NCBI RefSeq assembly: GCF_000317045.1
Contig: NC_019703.1
Location: 124,001 to 188,000 of the forward strand
Length of the DNA stretch: 64,000 nt
DNA from: Geitlerinema sp. PCC 7407
Lineage (GTDB): Bacteria > Cyanobacteriota > Cyanobacteriia > PCC-7407
Direction: 5' to 3'
In this document: piece by piece, positions 51,692 through 61,502 of the stretch
Layout: every line of letters starts with the position of its first letter
How positions within the stretch are numbered: the stretch's first letter is position 1
Translations under genes and position numbers: made by a program
The notes under the pieces: generated by a model
Databases searched by the model: none
Seen by the model: only the letters and a program-made list of their open reading frames with translations
What the model was told of the DNA's origin: nothing

Positions 51692-51784
51692 AAGGTTTCC
51701 CTTACCTTGTTAAAAAGCTTGGTGGCTAATCCTGACTGCCTGGGATTGCGCCAAGGGTGCGTGTCGATTTGGGAGAAACTTGAA

Positions 51785-52753
51785 GTGAGCTATCTAGAAA
51801 CCACGGCCCAGTTCTACAGCGAAGTGGCCCAAACCCCGGACGTTGGCCTGTGCTGTGTCCAGAGCACGCCCCTGCGGCTGCCTGACCTGGTGGTGCCCGA
51901 GGCCATGCAGGCCATGAACTACGGGTGTGGCACCACGGTCCACCCGGCGGAGCTGGCGGGGGAGCCAAAGGTACTCTACGTGGGCGTGGGCGGTGGTCTG
52001 GAGGCGCTCCAGTTTGCCTATTTTTCCCGGCGGCCCGGGGGCGTCATCGCCGTCGATCCGGTGGCCGAAATGCGGGAGGCCGCGCAGCGCAATCTGGCGA
52101 TCGCCGCTGAGGCCAACTCCTGGTTTGCCGAGGACTTCGTCACCCTCCTGGCCGGGGATGCCTTTGCCCTGCCCGTGCCCGACGCCTCGGTGGACGTGGT
52201 AGCCCAGAACTGCCTGTTCAATATTTTTGAGCCCGAGGATCTCTCTCGCGCCCTCGCCGAAACCTTCCGCGTCCTCAAGCCCGGCGGCCGCCTGATCATG
52301 AGTGACCCGATCGCCACTCGGCCCATTCCGGCCCACCTCCAGCAGGATGAGCGGCTGCGGGCGATGTGCCTGTCTGGAGCGCTCACCTACGAGCAGTACG
52401 TCCAGCGCATTGTTCGGGCCGGGTTCGGCCAGGTCGAAATTCGCGCCCGTCGGCCCTACCGCCTGCTCGATCGCCAGACCTACCAGCTCGACGAGCCCCT
52501 CCTGCTCGAGAGTCTGGACTCGGTGGCCTTCAAAGTGCCCATTGCCCCCGACGGCCCCTGCATCTTCACCGGCAAAACTGCCATCTACAGCGGTTCCGAA
52601 TCTTGCTTTGATGACGGGGCGGGCCACGTGCTCGCCAAAGGGGTTCCGGCGGCGGTCTGCGACAAAACGGCAGCCAAGCTAGGGGCGATCGCCTCCGAAG
52701 AGATCTGGGTGACCCCGTCCACCTGGCACTACGACGGCGGCGGCTGTTGCTAG
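51785..52753 (+). CDS. arsM: Arsenosugar-type arsenite S-adenosylmethionine methyltransferase ArsM
   Basis: 322 residues from GTG 51785, which has GGGAGA about nine bases upstream; a TTG at 51707 would add 26 unconserved residues. It carries vicinal cysteines C23-C24 (VGLCCVQSTPL), NYGCGTT, a SAM-binding VGVGGGLEAL, and a catalytic cysteine in VAQNCLFNIF, then LMSDPIATR. It ends YDGGGCC. This pattern, and the adjacent radical SAM gene, fit the ArsM that methylates arsenite to dimethylarsenic species for arsenosugar synthesis. The cysteine pairs would bind As(III). Confidence 0.85.
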   Translation: MSYLETTAQFYSEVAQTPDVGLCCVQSTPLRLPDLVVPEAMQAMNYGCGTTVHPAELAGEPKVLYVGVGGGLEALQFAYFSRRPGGVIAVDPVAEMREAAQRNLAIAAEANSWFAEDFVTLLAGDAFALPVPDASVDVVAQNCLFNIFEPEDLSRALAETFRVLKPGGRLIMSDPIATRPIPAHLQQDERLRAMCLSGALTYEQYVQRIVRAGFGQVEIRARRPYRLLDRQTYQLDEPLLLESLDSVAFKVPIAPDGPCIFTGKTAIYSGSESCFDDGAGHVLAKGVPAAVCDKTAAKLGAIASEEIWVTPSTWHYDGGGCC

Positions 52754-52795
52754 TTTTCTCCTGTTTTCTCCCCGAGATCTTTCCCGCGATTCCCC

Positions 52796-53797
52796 ATGAC
52801 CCAGCTCAATCTTCCGACCGAGAGCGTGACCCCCTTCGCCCACAAGCTCGCCGCGCCCCTGACCAAGCAGACCATCACCGTCTTGCAAATTAATCTCGGG
52901 CGTCGCTGCAACCTGGCCTGCTCCCACTGCCACGTGGAGGCCAGCCCCCAGCGCACCGAAGAACTCTCTCCCGAGGTGTGCGACCAGCTCCTGACCTTGA
53001 TTCGCCGCTTTCCTCAGATCCAGACCGTGGACCTGACGGGGGGCGCTCCCGAGATGAACTACGGGTTTCGGGCGCTGGTGGAGACGGCCCGCGCTTGCGG
53101 CAAGGCCGTGATCGTGCGCTCGAATCTCACCATTTGCCTAGAGCCCGGTTACGAAGACCTCCCCGCCTACTTCGCTCAGCATCAGGTGCGGGTGGTGGCT
53201 TCGCTGCCCTGCTACAGCGCCGAAAACGTCGATCGCATGCGGGGCCAAGGCGTCTTTGAGCGCTCCATCGAGGTGCTGCGGCGGCTCAACCAGGCGGGCT
53301 ATGGCCGGGATCCGCGGCTGATGCTGGATCTGGTCTACAACCCCCAGGTCCCCCAGACCGAGAAGTTTGCCCTGACCCCCGACCAGGCCAAGCTAGAAAA
53401 AGACTACAAAGCCTATCTCCAAGGGCAGTTTGGGGTGGTGTTCGATCGCCTGCTGACCATCACCAATTTGCCCATTGGCCGCACCAAGTTTCATTTGCAG
53501 CACCGACAGCTTTACGCGCCTTATCTGCGCTTTCTGGAGACCCACTTCAACCCTGACACGGTGGCAGGCCTGATGTGCTTGCAGGAGCTGTCGGTGGACT
53601 ACCTGGGTCGCGTATACGACTGCGACTTTAACCAAATGGAGGGGCTACCAGCCCGCACGCCGGACGGTCAGCCGCTGACGGTGGAGGCGCTGCTGGCGGC
53701 AGACAGCCTGGACCGGATCGAGCGGGTGCAGACGGCGGACTACTGCTACGGCTGCACGGCGGGCGCAGGGTCGAGCTGTGGCGGCTCTCTGGTCTAG
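52796..53797 (+). CDS. arsS: Arsenosugar biosynthesis radical SAM protein ArsS
   Basis: 333 residues. The radical SAM cluster motif is C38-x3-C42-x2-C45 (RRCNLACSHCH), followed by VDLTGGAPEMNYGF and a C-terminal Cys-rich domain (LMCLQELSVDYLGRVYDCDF, YCYGCTAGAGSSCGG). ArsS transfers the 5'-deoxyadenosyl group to dimethylarsenite, giving 5'-deoxy-5'-dimethylarsinoyl-adenosine. It follows arsM by 42 bases in the same direction, which supports both names. The C-terminal cysteines may bind auxiliary clusters or arsenic; they are all Cys here, with no in-frame TGA. Confidence 0.88.
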   Translation: MTQLNLPTESVTPFAHKLAAPLTKQTITVLQINLGRRCNLACSHCHVEASPQRTEELSPEVCDQLLTLIRRFPQIQTVDLTGGAPEMNYGFRALVETARACGKAVIVRSNLTICLEPGYEDLPAYFAQHQVRVVASLPCYSAENVDRMRGQGVFERSIEVLRRLNQAGYGRDPRLMLDLVYNPQVPQTEKFALTPDQAKLEKDYKAYLQGQFGVVFDRLLTITNLPIGRTKFHLQHRQLYAPYLRFLETHFNPDTVAGLMCLQELSVDYLGRVYDCDFNQMEGLPARTPDGQPLTVEALLAADSLDRIERVQTADYCYGCTAGAGSSCGGSLV

Positions 53798-53883
53798 GGC
53801 AGGGGACTTTGCGGGAAATCGGTAGGGTTGCTTACACTGCTGTAGGGGGCGATCGCTCTCCGAGTCGCGATTCAACAAAAGCC

Positions 53884-54117
53884 ATGGCAAAGCACACCCA
53901 AGCCCACATCTCCCGCAAAGTTCGCAACGGTATGTCAGCGATGACCCGGCGCCAAGTCGAGTACTACATGGGCGCGAAGCTGATCGAAGTCGGGATCGAT
54001 CCCAAGTCGGCGGTGTATCGCTGGACGGTCGAAAAGGAAGACGGCCAAGAAGTCTGGACCTACAGCGCCTACTGGGGAGACTCCCGGGAAAAAATCGAGG
54101 CGGGTGAAACCCCCTAG
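53884..54117 (+). CDS. Conserved small protein, 77 aa, function unknown
   Basis: Small basic protein: MAKHTQAHISRKVRNGMSAM, then TRRQVEYYMGAKLIEVGID and VYRWTVEKEDGQEVWTYSAYWG. A possible nucleic-acid or ligand-binding fold, not recognised. ATG 53884 is the natural start; a longer frame from 53809 is not conserved-looking. TTTGCG ... TACACT (about 53812 and 53835) could be its promoter, so it may begin a new unit after arsS. Confidence 0.6.
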   Translation: MAKHTQAHISRKVRNGMSAMTRRQVEYYMGAKLIEVGIDPKSAVYRWTVEKEDGQEVWTYSAYWGDSREKIEAGETP

Positions 54118-54162: not shown

Positions 54163-55050
54163 GTGACAGCGCAGCAAGAGACTCTGTTTGAGCGCTTTTT
54201 AGCGCCGGTTTTTCGCACGTTTTTGATCGATGAAGCGGCGATCGGGCGCTATGCGGCCAGCATCGACTGGGAAACAGCGTGCGATCGCCTGCAAAACCCG
54301 GCAGTGGTCTATCCCGACTACTACTGCAACCACAACTTTCACGGCATTCGGGGCGGCTATCTGACTGCCGGTGCCGCCGTCACCTACGACCCCATCACCC
54401 AGTACGTCCTGCCGCCCCAGGAAACCTGGGTGCGCGAGGGGCTGGTGCAGGCCATTGAGGCTCGCCCCCGCCGCATTCTGGACCTGGGCTGCGGCACCGG
54501 CTCGACCACCCTCCTGCTCAAGCAGCGCTTTCCGGCGGCGGAGGTCATCGGCCTAGACCTCTCGCCCCACATGCTGGTCGTCGCCACGGACAAAGCCCAC
54601 AAAGCAGGCCTAGACATTGCCTTTCGCCACGGGGACGCGGCAGCCACAGGCCTGCTGGCGCAGTCGGTGGATGTGGTGACGGCCTCGCTGCTGTTCCACG
54701 AGACGCCGCCCAGCGTTACCCAGGCGATCTTGCGCGAAGCCTACCGGCTGCTGGTCCCTGGCGGCGAGATAGTGATTCTCGATGGCAATCAGGCGACTCT
54801 GCGCCAAACCGAGTGGCTGACCCAGATTTTTGAGGAGCCGTTCATCCAGGACTACGCCGAGGGCAATCTGGACGCGTGGTTAGGGGCGGCGGGCTTTGGG
54901 GCGGTGCGGACCCAGGTCCACTGGTGGCTCAATCAGGTCAGTCGCGGGGTCAAGCCGAAGGATCGCCCGGACTGGGAAGCAGCAGAGACGTCACGCTATG
55001 ATTCAGATTTTGAAAATGGCTCTCTTCCAGCATTTGGCACATTGGCATGA
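54163..55050 (+). CDS. Class I SAM-dependent methyltransferase
   Basis: 295 residues. GTG 54163 is preceded by GGGAGAGGA. The Rossmann-fold methyltransferase core has motif I ILDLGCGTGSTTLLL, the acidic loop VIGLDLSPHML, and a post-I FRHGDAAATGLL. An N-terminal extension of about 90 residues (PDYYCNHNFHGIRGGYLTAGAAVTYD) is characteristic of a family of uncharacterised cyanobacterial and plant methyltransferases. The substrate is unknown. It overlaps the following HAD gene by four bases (ATGA), so the two are co-translated. Confidence 0.8.
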   Translation: MTAQQETLFERFLAPVFRTFLIDEAAIGRYAASIDWETACDRLQNPAVVYPDYYCNHNFHGIRGGYLTAGAAVTYDPITQYVLPPQETWVREGLVQAIEARPRRILDLGCGTGSTTLLLKQRFPAAEVIGLDLSPHMLVVATDKAHKAGLDIAFRHGDAAATGLLAQSVDVVTASLLFHETPPSVTQAILREAYRLLVPGGEIVILDGNQATLRQTEWLTQIFEEPFIQDYAEGNLDAWLGAAGFGAVRTQVHWWLNQVSRGVKPKDRPDWEAAETSRYDSDFENGSLPAFGTLA

Positions 55051-55754
55051 TGCTTAAAGCGGTTTTGTTTGACTTCAACGGGATCATCATCAACGATGAG
55101 GCGCTCCACGAGCAGCTCTTGGAGCAGTTGCTGATCGAAGAAAACCTGCGCCCCCAGCGGGCGGAGTTTCAAGAGGTGTGTCTGGGCCGCAGCGATCGCG
55201 CCTGTCTGCGAGATCTGCTGGAGCGGCGGGGGCGCGTGGTGACCGACGCCTACCTGGATATTCTGATTCGCCGCAAAGCCCAGGCCTACCGGCAGGCCCT
55301 CGACGGGCTGGAGACGCTGCCGATTTATCCAGGGCTAGAAGATTTCTTGTTCAAGCTCCAGGGCCAAGGGGTGCCCATGGGAGTGGTCAGTGGGGCCTTG
55401 CGATCGGAAATTGAGCTGGTGCTGACGCGATCGCACTTGGCCAAATACTTTACGGTGATGGTCGGCGGTGACGAGATTTCGGCCAGTAAGCCCGATCCAG
55501 AGGGCTATCTGCTAGCCGTCGATCGCCTCAATGCAGCGTTGCCAGACCTACAGCTTCAGCCCCAAAACTGTCTGGCCATTGAAGATACCTATCCCGGTAT
55601 TCGGGCCGCCAAGGGCGCAGGCATGCAGGTGCTCGGCGTTGCCAATACCCATCCCTTTCAAATGATGCACCGCACCGCGAACTGGGTCGTAGACTACCTC
55701 ACGGAGGTGGATCTCGAGCATGTGCGGCGAGTTTTTAGCGCGAATGCTGCCTGA
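55047..55754 (+). CDS. HAD-superfamily protein with Asp-x-Asn motif I
   Basis: 235 residues, beta-phosphoglucomutase-like. Motif I reads LFDFNGIIINDE, so nucleophile D9 is present but the second Asp, usually the general acid/base, is Asn (N11). Motif II (GVVSGAL), the lysine (SASKPDPEGY) and motif IV (AIEDTYPGI) are intact. The cap domain is about 18-85. The enzyme may have altered phosphatase activity. The same DFNG variant occurs in other cyanobacterial HAD proteins as far as I recall. Its start lies within the stop codon of the methyltransferase gene. Confidence 0.8.
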   Translation: MMLKAVLFDFNGIIINDEALHEQLLEQLLIEENLRPQRAEFQEVCLGRSDRACLRDLLERRGRVVTDAYLDILIRRKAQAYRQALDGLETLPIYPGLEDFLFKLQGQGVPMGVVSGALRSEIELVLTRSHLAKYFTVMVGGDEISASKPDPEGYLLAVDRLNAALPDLQLQPQNCLAIEDTYPGIRAAKGAGMQVLGVANTHPFQMMHRTANWVVDYLTEVDLEHVRRVFSANAA

Positions 55755-55768
55755 AGGCTGTCTAGATA

Positions 55769-55814
55769 GGGGCTCCGCTAAGAGGTGCTCGCTCGCTGAG
55801 GGGTGAGGAGCCCC
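55769..55814 (+). terminator. Possible terminator of the HAD gene
   Basis: 8-bp inverted repeat GGGGCTCC / GGAGCCCC separated by 30 bases, 15 bases after the stop. The loop is long and no T-run follows, so it is only a candidate. Confidence 0.35.
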
Positions 55815-55886: not shown

Positions 55887-55973
55887 CTAGCGGTAGCTAC
55901 GCTGCATGTCTTGGGCCAATGCGAGGACGTAGATAACCAGAAGATTGCCGATAATCAGTGCTGCGGGAAACAT
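55887..55973 (-). CDS. 28-aa single-helix membrane microprotein
   Basis: Short ORF encoding 28 residues: MFPAALIIGNLLVIYVLALA followed by a polar tail ending RSYR. A near-perfect ribosome binding site (GGAGGT) lies six bases before the ATG. One transmembrane helix with a short basic cytosolic tail fits the many tiny thylakoid subunits of cyanobacterial photosystems, cytochrome b6f and NDH-1. It does not match PetG, PetL, PetM, PetN, PsbM, PsbT, PsbX, Psb30 or PsaM by memory. It stands alone between the HAD gene and the metalloprotease gene. Confidence 0.65.
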   Translation of the reverse strand: MFPAALIIGNLLVIYVLALAQDMQRSYR

Positions 55974-56191
55974 GGTGGGACCTCCGTGGTTGTGTTGATT
56001 GAGGTGGCAATGAGGCCAACCTAGGCCCCTACTGGGAAACCACACCAAGACAGCGCTGATTTCGCAAAATTGCCAGAAAAGTTCGTCCTTCTTTGATCTT
56101 TTCTTTGGGCTCTAGGCGATCGCTCTATGACCCTAAAGTACTCCTGGGGCGAAGGAAGTTGTTCGGTAGTTTCCAGGAAGTTTTAAGGCGT

Positions 56192-58900
56192 TCAGCGGCT
56201 CTCTAGATTGGCCTCCAGTACTTTCTCGATGCGATCGCTGCTTTCAGCCAGGTGGGCCTCGGTGTAGGGGTCGAGATTTTTTTGGGAGCGCAGGCTGGCC
56301 CGCAGCGCGCCTCGCAGGGTGCGCAGCTCGGCCCAGGCGAGGGTGCGGGCGTCTTCGGGGACGCTGGAGCGGCGCAGCACCATGTCCGAGAGGAGGTCTA
56401 GGTGGGTGCGCTGGAGGCTGCGGCGAGTGCTGGCGATCGCCCCTGTGGCTTCTGGATCTGCCAGCACCTCTGACCAAATGCTTTGGCGCAGACTTTCAAA
56501 GAGATCCACCAAAGACAGCGCCTCGTTGGGAGCGCTCTTGAGCTCGGTGTCCCGCATCCGCTCTAGGCGCGGCCCGTGGAGCAAGTCTTGCAAAACCAGG
56601 CTCTGGAAGCTCAAAATGCGATCGTGAATTGGGTAGTCCACGGCATGGATGGTGGGAGTGTTGGCCCAGTCGTTCCAGCGATCGGGCGCTAGCTTGTTGA
56701 GCAGATCGGGGGGAAAGTCGAGGGCGTCGGCGGCGAAGACGTACTGGTCCAGGAGCTTGAGGGCCTCCTTTTGCTCCTTGAGGGGCACCGACTCGAAGGG
56801 CAATAGACCCGCGCGATCGCCCGCGTAGCTGCGAGAAAAGCGGCGGCCCCCCACCTGCCGACTGATAAAAACGGCGTGGCGACGGTAGTACTGGAAAATC
56901 GTCTCGAAGCGATCGCGCACGGTGCTGTAACTTTCGCCGGGGGCCGGATAGCGCCGGTGAAGTCGCGCCCACAGGGTCTTGGCGATCTCCAACTGCCACT
57001 GGGAATAGCGCAGGTTTTCTTGGCTGTAGTCGAAGGCTAGGACTGACGGATCGAGCGCTCCGTAGAGGTCTTCGTCCGAGGCGTAGGTCAGCCCAGGTTC
57101 GCCACTGCGCCGAGCGATCGCCTCGATGTCGCGTCGCTCTGCCTGGGGATTGGCTGCTCCAAAGGGCGTGTAGCCATAGGCGATCGCCCAGCGGTCGTAC
57201 ATCCCGATCCGCCGGGAATAGTAGTCCCCCTGGGGCGTTCCCGGCGGGGCCAGATTCACCGGCAGATAGTCCATCACCGAGCTAGCCAGCCCCTGCTCCG
57301 CCGTGATCGCCGGATCGTTCATCTCTTCGAGGGTGAGCAGGGTAGACCCCTCGAAATTGTGGCGCAGGCCCAGGGTGTGGCCCACCTCGTGGGCCGTGAT
57401 GTAGCGCAAGTACTGGTGCATGAAATCGGCGGTGCGATCGCCGCTGGGCAGGGCATTGTCGATCAGATCGAGGCTGAGGGACCCCAGGGCAAACTGGAGC
57501 GCCGCCTCGTTGCCAAAACACAGGTCATGGCGGTCCATCATCTCCTCGACCATGGGCGATCGCCGCTGCCCGCGCATCCATTCCGAGTCCTCCAGCGACA
57601 AAGCGTCACAGAGCGATCGCTGCGAAGCCTGCCCGCTCGATGCCCCAAGTTCCATCAGGGTTTCGTATTTTTGGAGGAGATTGGCGTCGATCACAATATC
57701 CGCGTCCAAAATCTCCCCGGTGAAGGGATTGGTGCGGGACGGCCCCATGGCAAAAGCCGCATCTAGCGAATTGAACCAGCGAATCGTGTTGTAGCGGACG
57801 TCCGCCGGGTCCCAATCGGCGTCATCGGGCATCTGGCGCACCTCGATGGCATTCTGAAACCCCACCGCCTCAAAGGCTTCATTCCACATCAGCACCCCCT
57901 CGCGGATCGCCTCCCGGTACTTGACTGGCACCGTGTTCTCGATCCAGAAGACAATGGGCTGGCGCGGCGGCGAGAGGGGGGCGCTGGGATCGGCCTTTTC
58001 CAGGTGCCAGCGGTGGATGTAGCGCAAAAACGGATCGCGATCGCTCCGCCCGAAGTCGCGGTAGGCCGAGAGAAAATACCCCACGCGCTCATCGGCCAGA
58101 CGCGGCACAAAGCTGGGACTACTGCGCAGGACCGAGAAGCTGTGGCGAACCCGCACCGAGAATCCCCGGCTGTCCGGCAGGGTCGGAATGTAGGTCGGGT
58201 TGTCGTCGTTGTCCTTGCCGGACCCCGAAAAGCTCTGAACGGTTTCTAGCTCCAGGTTTTCCTGAAAGGCCTGCACCTCGCTGACGTAGGACTTGTCGCG
58301 ATCGAGGCTGTAGGGCGCTTCCAGAAACAGTGGTATCCAGGTCTTGAAGTCGGCAATGTCGTCGCTGTTGAGCAGCAGGTCGTTGAGGTCCACCAGCAGG
58401 CTCTGGCGATCGGGGTGGATGCTTTGAATGTCGAGGGCATAAAGCACCGAATCGCTAAAAGACCCAGCCAGCGCGCGATCGGCGGCCGGGTCGCCGGAGC
58501 TGTTGCGGACCTTGGTGTTGGGGACGATCAGGTGCAGTTTGTTTTCGACCCGCTGGAGCCGCAGGGGAAACTCCACCAGGGGAGTCCCCCGGTACAGGCC
58601 GCTTTCGCCGATGCCCGAGGCCAGGGTGCTGATCCACAGGTAGGTTTGGTTGAGCTGGCGGGGCTGGACTTCGAGGTACAGCTTGCCTGAGGCCTGGTCG
58701 CGGTAAAGGGTAAAGAGGCCGTCGAGCTTTTCGGTGTCCTTGATGACTTGGTCAAAGGGCTTCATGCCAGCGGGCAGGCTGGGCTTGGCCGCTTGGGCGA
58801 TCGCCCGGGGTTCGGGATCGGGAAAGGCGATCGCTTCCTCGACTCCCAGCGAACTCAGCAATCCGGTGAGCGCGATCAGCCCAAGCAAAGAACGATTCAT
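56192..58900 (-). CDS. Secreted zinc metalloprotease (DUF5117/DUF4953 type)
   Basis: 902 residues with a signal peptide (about 1-25). The long N-terminal region (about 40-300) resembles DUF5117/DUF5118. The zinc motif HEVGHTLGLRH (HExxHxxGxxH, metzincin type) is near residues 495-505, followed by a Met-turn-like SSVMDYLP. The C-terminal third is helical and uncharacterised. Such proteins are predicted extracellular or periplasmic proteases. GGAG precedes the ATG at 58900. It follows the GH116 gene in the same direction, separated by 136 bases with a hairpin. Confidence 0.88.
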   Translation of the reverse strand: MNRSLLGLIALTGLLSSLGVEEAIAFPDPEPRAIAQAAKPSLPAGMKPFDQVIKDTEKLDGLFTLYRDQASGKLYLEVQPRQLNQTYLWISTLASGIGESGLYRGTPLVEFPLRLQRVENKLHLIVPNTKVRNSSGDPAADRALAGSFSDSVLYALDIQSIHPDRQSLLVDLNDLLLNSDDIADFKTWIPLFLEAPYSLDRDKSYVSEVQAFQENLELETVQSFSGSGKDNDDNPTYIPTLPDSRGFSVRVRHSFSVLRSSPSFVPRLADERVGYFLSAYRDFGRSDRDPFLRYIHRWHLEKADPSAPLSPPRQPIVFWIENTVPVKYREAIREGVLMWNEAFEAVGFQNAIEVRQMPDDADWDPADVRYNTIRWFNSLDAAFAMGPSRTNPFTGEILDADIVIDANLLQKYETLMELGASSGQASQRSLCDALSLEDSEWMRGQRRSPMVEEMMDRHDLCFGNEAALQFALGSLSLDLIDNALPSGDRTADFMHQYLRYITAHEVGHTLGLRHNFEGSTLLTLEEMNDPAITAEQGLASSVMDYLPVNLAPPGTPQGDYYSRRIGMYDRWAIAYGYTPFGAANPQAERRDIEAIARRSGEPGLTYASDEDLYGALDPSVLAFDYSQENLRYSQWQLEIAKTLWARLHRRYPAPGESYSTVRDRFETIFQYYRRHAVFISRQVGGRRFSRSYAGDRAGLLPFESVPLKEQKEALKLLDQYVFAADALDFPPDLLNKLAPDRWNDWANTPTIHAVDYPIHDRILSFQSLVLQDLLHGPRLERMRDTELKSAPNEALSLVDLFESLRQSIWSEVLADPEATGAIASTRRSLQRTHLDLLSDMVLRRSSVPEDARTLAWAELRTLRGALRASLRSQKNLDPYTEAHLAESSDRIEKVLEANLESR

Positions 58901-58960
58901 GGTGGCTCCGAGTCTGGACGGGGAGAGGGCACTCTGCCCAGACTGCGATCGCCCAGGATG

Positions 58961-58991
58961 AAGCCCCTTCCAACCATTCTGGAAAGGGCTT
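58961..58991 (-). terminator. Probable terminator of the GH116 gene
   Basis: 12-bp stem AAGCCCCTTCCA / TGGAAAGGGCTT (one G-U pair on the minus strand) with a 7-base loop, about 45 bases past the GH116 stop. No strong T-run follows. Confidence 0.5.
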
Positions 58992-59036
58992 GGGCCTTTG
59001 GTGGCGAAACTTCACACTGATTTTTGTTTGCGACGT

Positions 59037-61502
59037 TTATTTGGGCTCAGGTGCGGAGCCTGGGGCCGCGCTCTGGAACCCCGTGAGCACGCCGTAGACC
59101 GCCCAAATGGCCATCGGTCGCAGGTAGTGGCAGGCCCGGAAAGTCCCCACGGCGGTGATCGCCTCGGGGGTGCGGAACTGGAGGCCGTGCTCGTAGATCT
59201 GCTCCACGACGGCCTGGGTCAGCCGGAAGCCTTCGTCCCGCAGACCCATCTGCACCAGAAACGCCGCAATGCCGAAGTTGATGCCGGTCCAGACCTCCAG
59301 CGGGTGGGTGGCCTTGGGGTTCTCGGGAGAGCCGTCGGGCTTGACGCCGTTGGCCGCCCCAAATTTCCCGTCGTGGAAGCGTAAGAAGCACGAATCATAA
59401 ACGGTCTTCAGGGCAGACAGGGCGCGATCGCTCGCCACCACATCCGGCAAGTCCAGCAGGCGGGCGTAGAACTGGCCGCAGAGCTGGTCCGCCATGACCA
59501 CTTCGGAGCCGCTGCCGCTGTCGAGGCGGTAATAGCGCCCGTTCCAGAGGGCGTCGTCGTAGACGGCGCGGGACTGGGCCAGCCAGGTGCGATAGGTGCT
59601 CAGGTGATGGGCGATCGCCCCTTGGCTCAGCTCAGGATGATCGCTAACCGGGTGCTGCTGAAGTCGCTCTCCCAGGGCGATCGCCGCCTCCAGGGCCGCA
59701 ATCCACAGGCCGCCGCAGTAGGCGCTCACCCCCTGCAAGCGCCAGTCATCAAAGGTCTGGTCAGGCGCGCCGGAGTTCTCGGGAATGCCGTCCCCGTCTT
59801 GGTCAAAGGCCTTGAGGTAGGCCAGGGCGCGCGTCACGGCGGGCCAGCACTCAGCGATGAAGGCGTCGTCCGTCGACCCTGTCAGCCGGAAATCTCGGTA
59901 CACCTGCAAGACAAAATCGCTGCCCAGATCCTTCCACAGGTTGCAGTCCTGGTAGCTGGTGTAGTTGGTCTTCTCCCAGGGGTGCTCGTTGGGCGCGCCG
60001 AGGTCGTGGGGCGTGGCGTCGAGGGCCTTGCGCAGGGCCAGGGGGCTCTCGGTCCCCTGAGTGTAGTAGTAGCCAATCACGCGCTGGCGATCGTCGGCGG
60101 TGGGAATGGCGCGGGCAAAGGCGCGCATCACCGACTTCTCCAGCTCTGGCCACAGCATTAGCAGGCCAAAGGAGCCGTAGAGCCGCACGTCCAGGCTCTC
60201 GTACCAACGGTAGTCGATGCACTCGAGAACGGCAAACTGGCCCACCGGATCGCGATCGCTAGCAGCGCTCCACAGCGTGCCGCCGCTGGTCAGGTCGTAC
60301 AGCTCATTAAATAGCGCCATCTTGAACCAGTTCGGCAGGTCCGCTCGGTCCAAAATCGGCTGCTGCCAAGCGGCAATGCGGGCCTGCCACGCCGAATACT
60401 CTTCGAGGGCGGTGCGGGCGATCGCCCACCCGTTGCGACCGCTGCGGCCAAAAAAGTCGGTGTAGCGGCGATAGGCCGCCGTCCCTGCCGCAAACTCCGT
60501 CACTGGGAAGTCCCAGGCTAGGACAAAGGGCACCCGCCGCGTTTCACCCGGCGCCAAAGTGAAGCGCAGGGCGATCGCCCCGCCGATCTGCTCTTCGCCT
60601 TGGGCCGGCGTCCCGTCAATCCGGTTCTCCAGAGCCCCCGTCTGGGCAAAGGTGCGCCACAGCTCTCCCCCGTCTCCAGCCGGGTTCCAGCGCGTGTGAT
60701 AAAAAATCTCCGTCCCTGGCCCCTCGCACTGGGTGGCGATCGCCCACTGACCCTCTCCTTCCTGGGGTTCCTCCGCGCGGCCCGCCCGATCCATCAAGCA
60801 GCCGACCCAGGCCCCTTCCGCGATCCACTGATTAAAGTTGCCCTCGCTCTCTCCCAGGCGCGGCTGGTACTCGTAGACCGGGCTGCCGTCGTCGCGGACC
60901 TTCACCTCCGGCGACTTCAGCGCATTGGTAAACCAGCCCACCATGTTCTGCCACGTCAGCAAAATGCTCAGCGTCAGCAGCTGATCCGTCGGGTTGTGGG
61001 CCGTCCACTCAAACACCGCCACCGGATAGCTGCTCTCTTGATAGTTGTCGGCCCAGATCGGCGAAAACTGCTCACAGGCCAGACGAGCGCGAAACACCCC
61101 CTCATAGTCGAAGCGGCTGCGGGGGTACAGGGCCGAATAGGTGCCGGTGGAGCGCTCCGCCATGGAGGCCGGGTACCACTGCCACTGACCGAGGCTCTCC
61201 GCTGGGGCCTCACTGCACAGGGCGTAAGCCTGGGAGGTGCCGTCTGCCCCTTGCTCAAAGACGCTGAACTGGCAGGCTGGCATCGACTGAAATACATGCT
61301 CGCCGCCGTCGATGTGCCACAGATTGAAGTCGCCCCGGGGCGATCGCCCCAGACACCCCGCCCCAAAGCCTCCCAAGGGCATGCCGTGCCACGGCCCATC
61401 GTCCAAATTACTGGCGTAGCGCACCGTATAAGGTCGCTCCCACCCCAAACCCAGCGGGCGTTGCCAAGCAGCAGACGAAACAGCAGCGGATGAAAATTCC
61501 AT
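59037..61502 (-). CDS. GH116 beta-glucosidase/glucosylceramidase-like
   Basis: 821 residues with no signal peptide, so likely cytosolic. It has the N-terminal beta-sandwich (GMPLGGFGAGCLGRSPRGDF) and the C-terminal (alpha/alpha)6 barrel of GH116 (non-lysosomal glucosylceramidase, GBA2 type). Likely catalytic residues lie in YRWYESLDVRLYGSF (nucleophile Glu) and PDQTFDDW (acid/base Asp), by analogy. Cyanobacterial substrates could be glucolipids or beta-glucosides. The Glu/Asp assignment is an inference from pattern. Confidence 0.87.
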   Translation of the reverse strand: MEFSSAAVSSAAWQRPLGLGWERPYTVRYASNLDDGPWHGMPLGGFGAGCLGRSPRGDFNLWHIDGGEHVFQSMPACQFSVFEQGADGTSQAYALCSEAPAESLGQWQWYPASMAERSTGTYSALYPRSRFDYEGVFRARLACEQFSPIWADNYQESSYPVAVFEWTAHNPTDQLLTLSILLTWQNMVGWFTNALKSPEVKVRDDGSPVYEYQPRLGESEGNFNQWIAEGAWVGCLMDRAGRAEEPQEGEGQWAIATQCEGPGTEIFYHTRWNPAGDGGELWRTFAQTGALENRIDGTPAQGEEQIGGAIALRFTLAPGETRRVPFVLAWDFPVTEFAAGTAAYRRYTDFFGRSGRNGWAIARTALEEYSAWQARIAAWQQPILDRADLPNWFKMALFNELYDLTSGGTLWSAASDRDPVGQFAVLECIDYRWYESLDVRLYGSFGLLMLWPELEKSVMRAFARAIPTADDRQRVIGYYYTQGTESPLALRKALDATPHDLGAPNEHPWEKTNYTSYQDCNLWKDLGSDFVLQVYRDFRLTGSTDDAFIAECWPAVTRALAYLKAFDQDGDGIPENSGAPDQTFDDWRLQGVSAYCGGLWIAALEAAIALGERLQQHPVSDHPELSQGAIAHHLSTYRTWLAQSRAVYDDALWNGRYYRLDSGSGSEVVMADQLCGQFYARLLDLPDVVASDRALSALKTVYDSCFLRFHDGKFGAANGVKPDGSPENPKATHPLEVWTGINFGIAAFLVQMGLRDEGFRLTQAVVEQIYEHGLQFRTPEAITAVGTFRACHYLRPMAIWAVYGVLTGFQSAAPGSAPEPK

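Follow-up and report, generated by a model that had tools for sequence, protein, structure and literature searches.

PsaM, PetN, PetL, and PsbI, which are subunits of the photosystems and of cytochrome b6f, are proteins of about 29–38 residues, each with one membrane helix and a short gene of its own, and they are conserved across cyanobacteria. PetN, with 29 residues, has been named as the shortest annotated conserved cyanobacterial protein (PMC5126843). Two further one-helix proteins have been described in Synechocystis. HliR1 (37 aa), whose gene is located upstream of sodB, was experimentally detected, and no homologues were reported outside its own genus (PMC5126843). Norf4 (31 aa) is reported to be extremely conserved in 51 cyanobacterial genomes, and its transcript, which greatly exceeds the frame in length, overlaps gap1 (PMC5126843).

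The 28-codon open frame described here (MFPAALIIGNLLVIYVLALAQDMQRSYR; ATG to TAG, 55887..55973, minus strand) lies in a 64-kb stretch of DNA, referred to below as the window. With the four conserved proteins, the putative microprotein shares its single predicted helix and its own short gene, and with psbI of this genome it has the GGAGGT-N6-ATG signal in common. In contrast to them, it has no sequence relative and falls outside their profiles. By description, it is like HliR1 in being an unannotated one-helix microprotein found only close to home, but the context of hliR1 is unrelated, and HliR1 was detected experimentally whereas the present microprotein is predicted from sequence. It is also like Norf4, again by description, in being a very short one-helix protein outside the standard annotation; however, Norf4 is widely conserved, whereas the microprotein was found nowhere else.

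The original prediction had placed a GGAGGT six bases ahead of an ATG that opens a 28-codon frame, and this arrangement can be read directly from the minus strand. The Shine-Dalgarno (SD) sequence GGAGGT occupies 55980..55985 and is followed by the six bases CCCACC and the ATG. Reading from 55985, the minus strand runs CACGGAGGTCCCACC-ATG-TTT-CCC-GCA-GCA-CTG..., with the ATG at 55973 and the TAG ending at 55887. The strand had been left unstated. The description is correct for the minus strand only: the plus strand at 55887-55973 reads LAVATLHVLGQ... and does not encode the 28-aa membrane protein.

The product would have 28 residues. The maximum mean Kyte-Doolittle hydropathy over 17 residues is 2.52 (2.19 for PsaM of the same genome), which bears out the proposed single hydrophobic helix; the predicted helix, PAALIIGNLLVIYVLALAQ, covers about residues 3–21 (55911..55967, minus strand). 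With this length and hydropathy, the predicted peptide would belong to the descriptive class of single-span membrane microproteins (less than about 50 aa, one hydrophobic helix). The tail, QDMQRSYR, had been called Arg-rich. This is overstated: it does contain two Arg residues, together with one Asp. The basic C-terminus, taken with the positive-inside rule, suggests that the C-terminus would be on the cytoplasmic side. This predicted anatomy is best read as that of a translated membrane microprotein with a single helix.

The frame is probably translated. This assessment is based on the rarity by chance of an SD combined with a hydrophobic helix, the absence of such frames from other cyanobacterial DNA, the occurrence of the same initiation signal before psbI and secF, and a codon choice nearer to that of genes. 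The chief alternative is that an untranslated 28-codon frame in intergenic DNA happens to fall behind a GGAGGT; this is considered unlikely, yet it carries real weight. In a screen of ATG frames of 18–60 codons with an SD (strict or relaxed) and a 17-mer hydropathy of at least 2.0, the frame was the only one in the window to pass, even with the relaxed SD. When the window is modelled as a first-order Markov chain, 0.009 such frames are expected per window at a cut of 2.0 and 0.0004 at a cut of 2.5; scaled to the 4.68-Mb genome, these values become about 0.65 and 0.03, respectively, the cut of 2.5 having been chosen only after the microprotein's own value had been seen. These joint expectations speak against chance, as does the lack of any comparable SD, ATG, and hydrophobic frame in 1.08 Mb of other cyanobacterial contigs. 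It should be mentioned, in favour of chance, that the frame was selected out of many windows, which inflates the per-window significance.

The initiation signal was also counted by itself. GGAGGT-N6-ATG occurs at 16 sites in the genome versus 13 for a reversed-pattern control, so that the pattern alone is weak evidence, and this near-equality is likewise on the side of chance. Inspection of all 16 sites left nine, besides that of the microprotein, that do not fall inside a clearly longer ORF. Of these nine, seven begin plausible genes, including secF and psbI (38 aa, Pfam E 1e-23; the signal lies at genome positions 2793673-2793687, minus strand). One of the other two opens a 14-codon frame with nothing else, and one is ambiguous.

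The synonymous codon score of the frame, +2.2 bits, is intermediate, closer to genes and below the average gene. For this peptide, the background expectation has a mean of -11.2 (sd 6.2) and the gene-like expectation a mean of 8.9 (sd 4.3). The score has a P of 0.013 under random synonymous choice, which argues against a chance frame, and a P of 0.064 under gene-like choice; its position below the average gene agrees with chance. The frame also has several rare codons (GCA, used three times, CTT, and CGT), which count against coding.

The lack of observed conservation also favours chance. A peptide search of cyanobacterial genomes, proposed with the original prediction, yielded no relative: among 59 relatives and 386 phylum-wide genomes, all of the others being outside its order, only the microprotein itself was recovered, with 0 credible matches. 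Other matches reached 15 bits at most and look spurious; those inspected had no SD, contained stops, or lay in other frames. As a control, the 29-residue PsaM of this genome was found by the same search in 51 of 58 other relatives, which means that homologues with as little as roughly 45–50% identity were within reach of the search. The loci beside homologues of the flanking genes, about 52 in total, gave the same picture. No plausible counterpart was present downstream of the HAD homologues (29 loci, 1 not oriented) or of the metalloprotease homologues (29 loci, 5 not oriented; the motif differed). In the named contig collection, an alignment scan with the HAD protein gave 80 loci, the closest 68% identical, and a scan with the metalloprotease gave no locus. 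A search of 380 genomes of the class with a degenerate DNA pattern for the N-terminus, tolerating up to 3 mismatches, revealed no counterpart; the pattern matched in 27 other genomes, and the 18 matches translated were parts of longer frames or were without a start or an SD. Searches of plasmid, phage, and viral sequences with the microprotein gave no match; one PHROG match (E 0.11) was disregarded. As far as can be seen from genomes outside its order, the microprotein would thus be a lineage-restricted orphan. If the frame is untranslated, it illustrates how convincing a chance frame can appear.

The neighbouring genes converge on the frame across a gap of 437 bp in which nothing else looks like a gene, and this setting counts in favour of coding. 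One border of the gap is the end of a HAD-family hydrolase gene (55047-55754, plus strand), and the other is the end of a gene for a Met-zincin-like metalloprotease (DUF4953/5117/5118; 56192-58900, minus strand). Because the flanking genes converge, there is no downstream gene for which the frame could serve as leader peptide, and it belongs to no evident operon. The 218 bp upstream of the frame (55974..56191, minus strand) form its intergenic leader and promoter region, in which a promoter scan recognised no sigma-70 consensus promoter on the microprotein strand, a point against the coding reading. A hairpin, GGGGCTCC...GGAGCCCC, lies between the convergent genes at 55769..55814, with no strand assigned; it is possibly their shared transcription end, and it has no strong T-run and was not called in the terminator scan. 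On the far side, a gene for a glycosyl hydrolase family 116 protein (Pfam E 1e-134) adjoins that of the large metalloprotease, the two occupying 56192-61502 on the minus strand.

This setting bears on an improbable alternative, in which the transcript works as a small RNA, or the region belongs to the 3' end of the metalloprotease mRNA, and any translation is incidental. The frame does lie downstream of the metalloprotease gene on the same strand, and the norf4 transcript, with its length and its overlap with gap1, speaks for this reading (PMC5126843). On the other hand, the region has no Rfam match of note, and RNA folding is not unusual: that of the leader is ordinary (z -1.0), and that of the tail is likewise unremarkable.

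The same folding value counts against a type I toxin-like hydrophobic peptide silenced by antisense RNA transcribed from the other strand, which is very improbable. Type I toxin peptides are of similar length, with a single hydrophobic helix and a charged tail, and an orphan distribution would suit one. However, no promoter-like site was found on the opposite strand over the frame in a sigma-70 consensus scan, a method that misses many promoters; there is no paralogue and there are no repeats, and no family match was obtained. The weakest alternative is that the peptide is one of the known small photosynthetic subunits in diverged form. It is similar to them in size and build, and the segment QDMQRS presumably bears a faint likeness to the C-terminus of PsbX; the idea is nevertheless hardly credible and is largely refuted for PsaM, PsbX, PetL, and PsbI, as all four are encoded at other places in the genome with scores above the family cut-off and the microprotein is therefore no stand-in for them. 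An identity with PsbX itself, considered from the QRS of the tail, was rejected for the same reason. No match to the 28-aa peptide was obtained in Pfam, NCBIfam, or PDB at E 10; small subunits beyond these four were covered solely by this profile scan. The earlier remark that the peptide matches none of the familiar small subunits thus holds, whereas the proposed relationship to widely shared subunits of photosynthesis or respiration found no backing, the peptide having neither a profile match nor relatives when PsaM was found widely.

For a translated, single-span membrane protein, the following course might be proposed. The gene would have its own transcript, initiated in the 218 bp that follow the metalloprotease gene, and the product would be inserted in the membrane with its C-terminus in the cytoplasm. 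There it may associate with a larger complex of the membrane, either as an accessory helix or in a regulatory role. Provided that the frame is coding, such a role is somewhat favoured, by analogy with what microproteins of this type usually do. The chances are about even that the whole explanation holds, namely that the frame is a real, translated gene confined to its lineage, whose 28-residue product spans the membrane once and acts as an accessory helix or regulator. A more specific version, in which intergenic DNA newly gave rise, in this order only, to an additional helix for a membrane complex of photosynthesis or respiration, translated with the initiation signal that psbI also has, seems rather improbable. 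If translated, the microprotein would rank among the shortest proteins in cyanobacteria (compare the 29-residue PetN, PMC5126843) and a clean example of a lineage-specific membrane microprotein, a type that gene finders tend to miss.

Elsewhere in the window, a 102-aa ORF without a Pfam or NCBIfam match (53809-54117, plus strand) is located between arsenosugar biosynthesis genes and a methyltransferase gene. The arsenosugar genes are side by side at 51707-53797 on the plus strand and encode ArsM (NCBIfam E 1e-172) and the radical SAM protein ArsS (E 8e-126).
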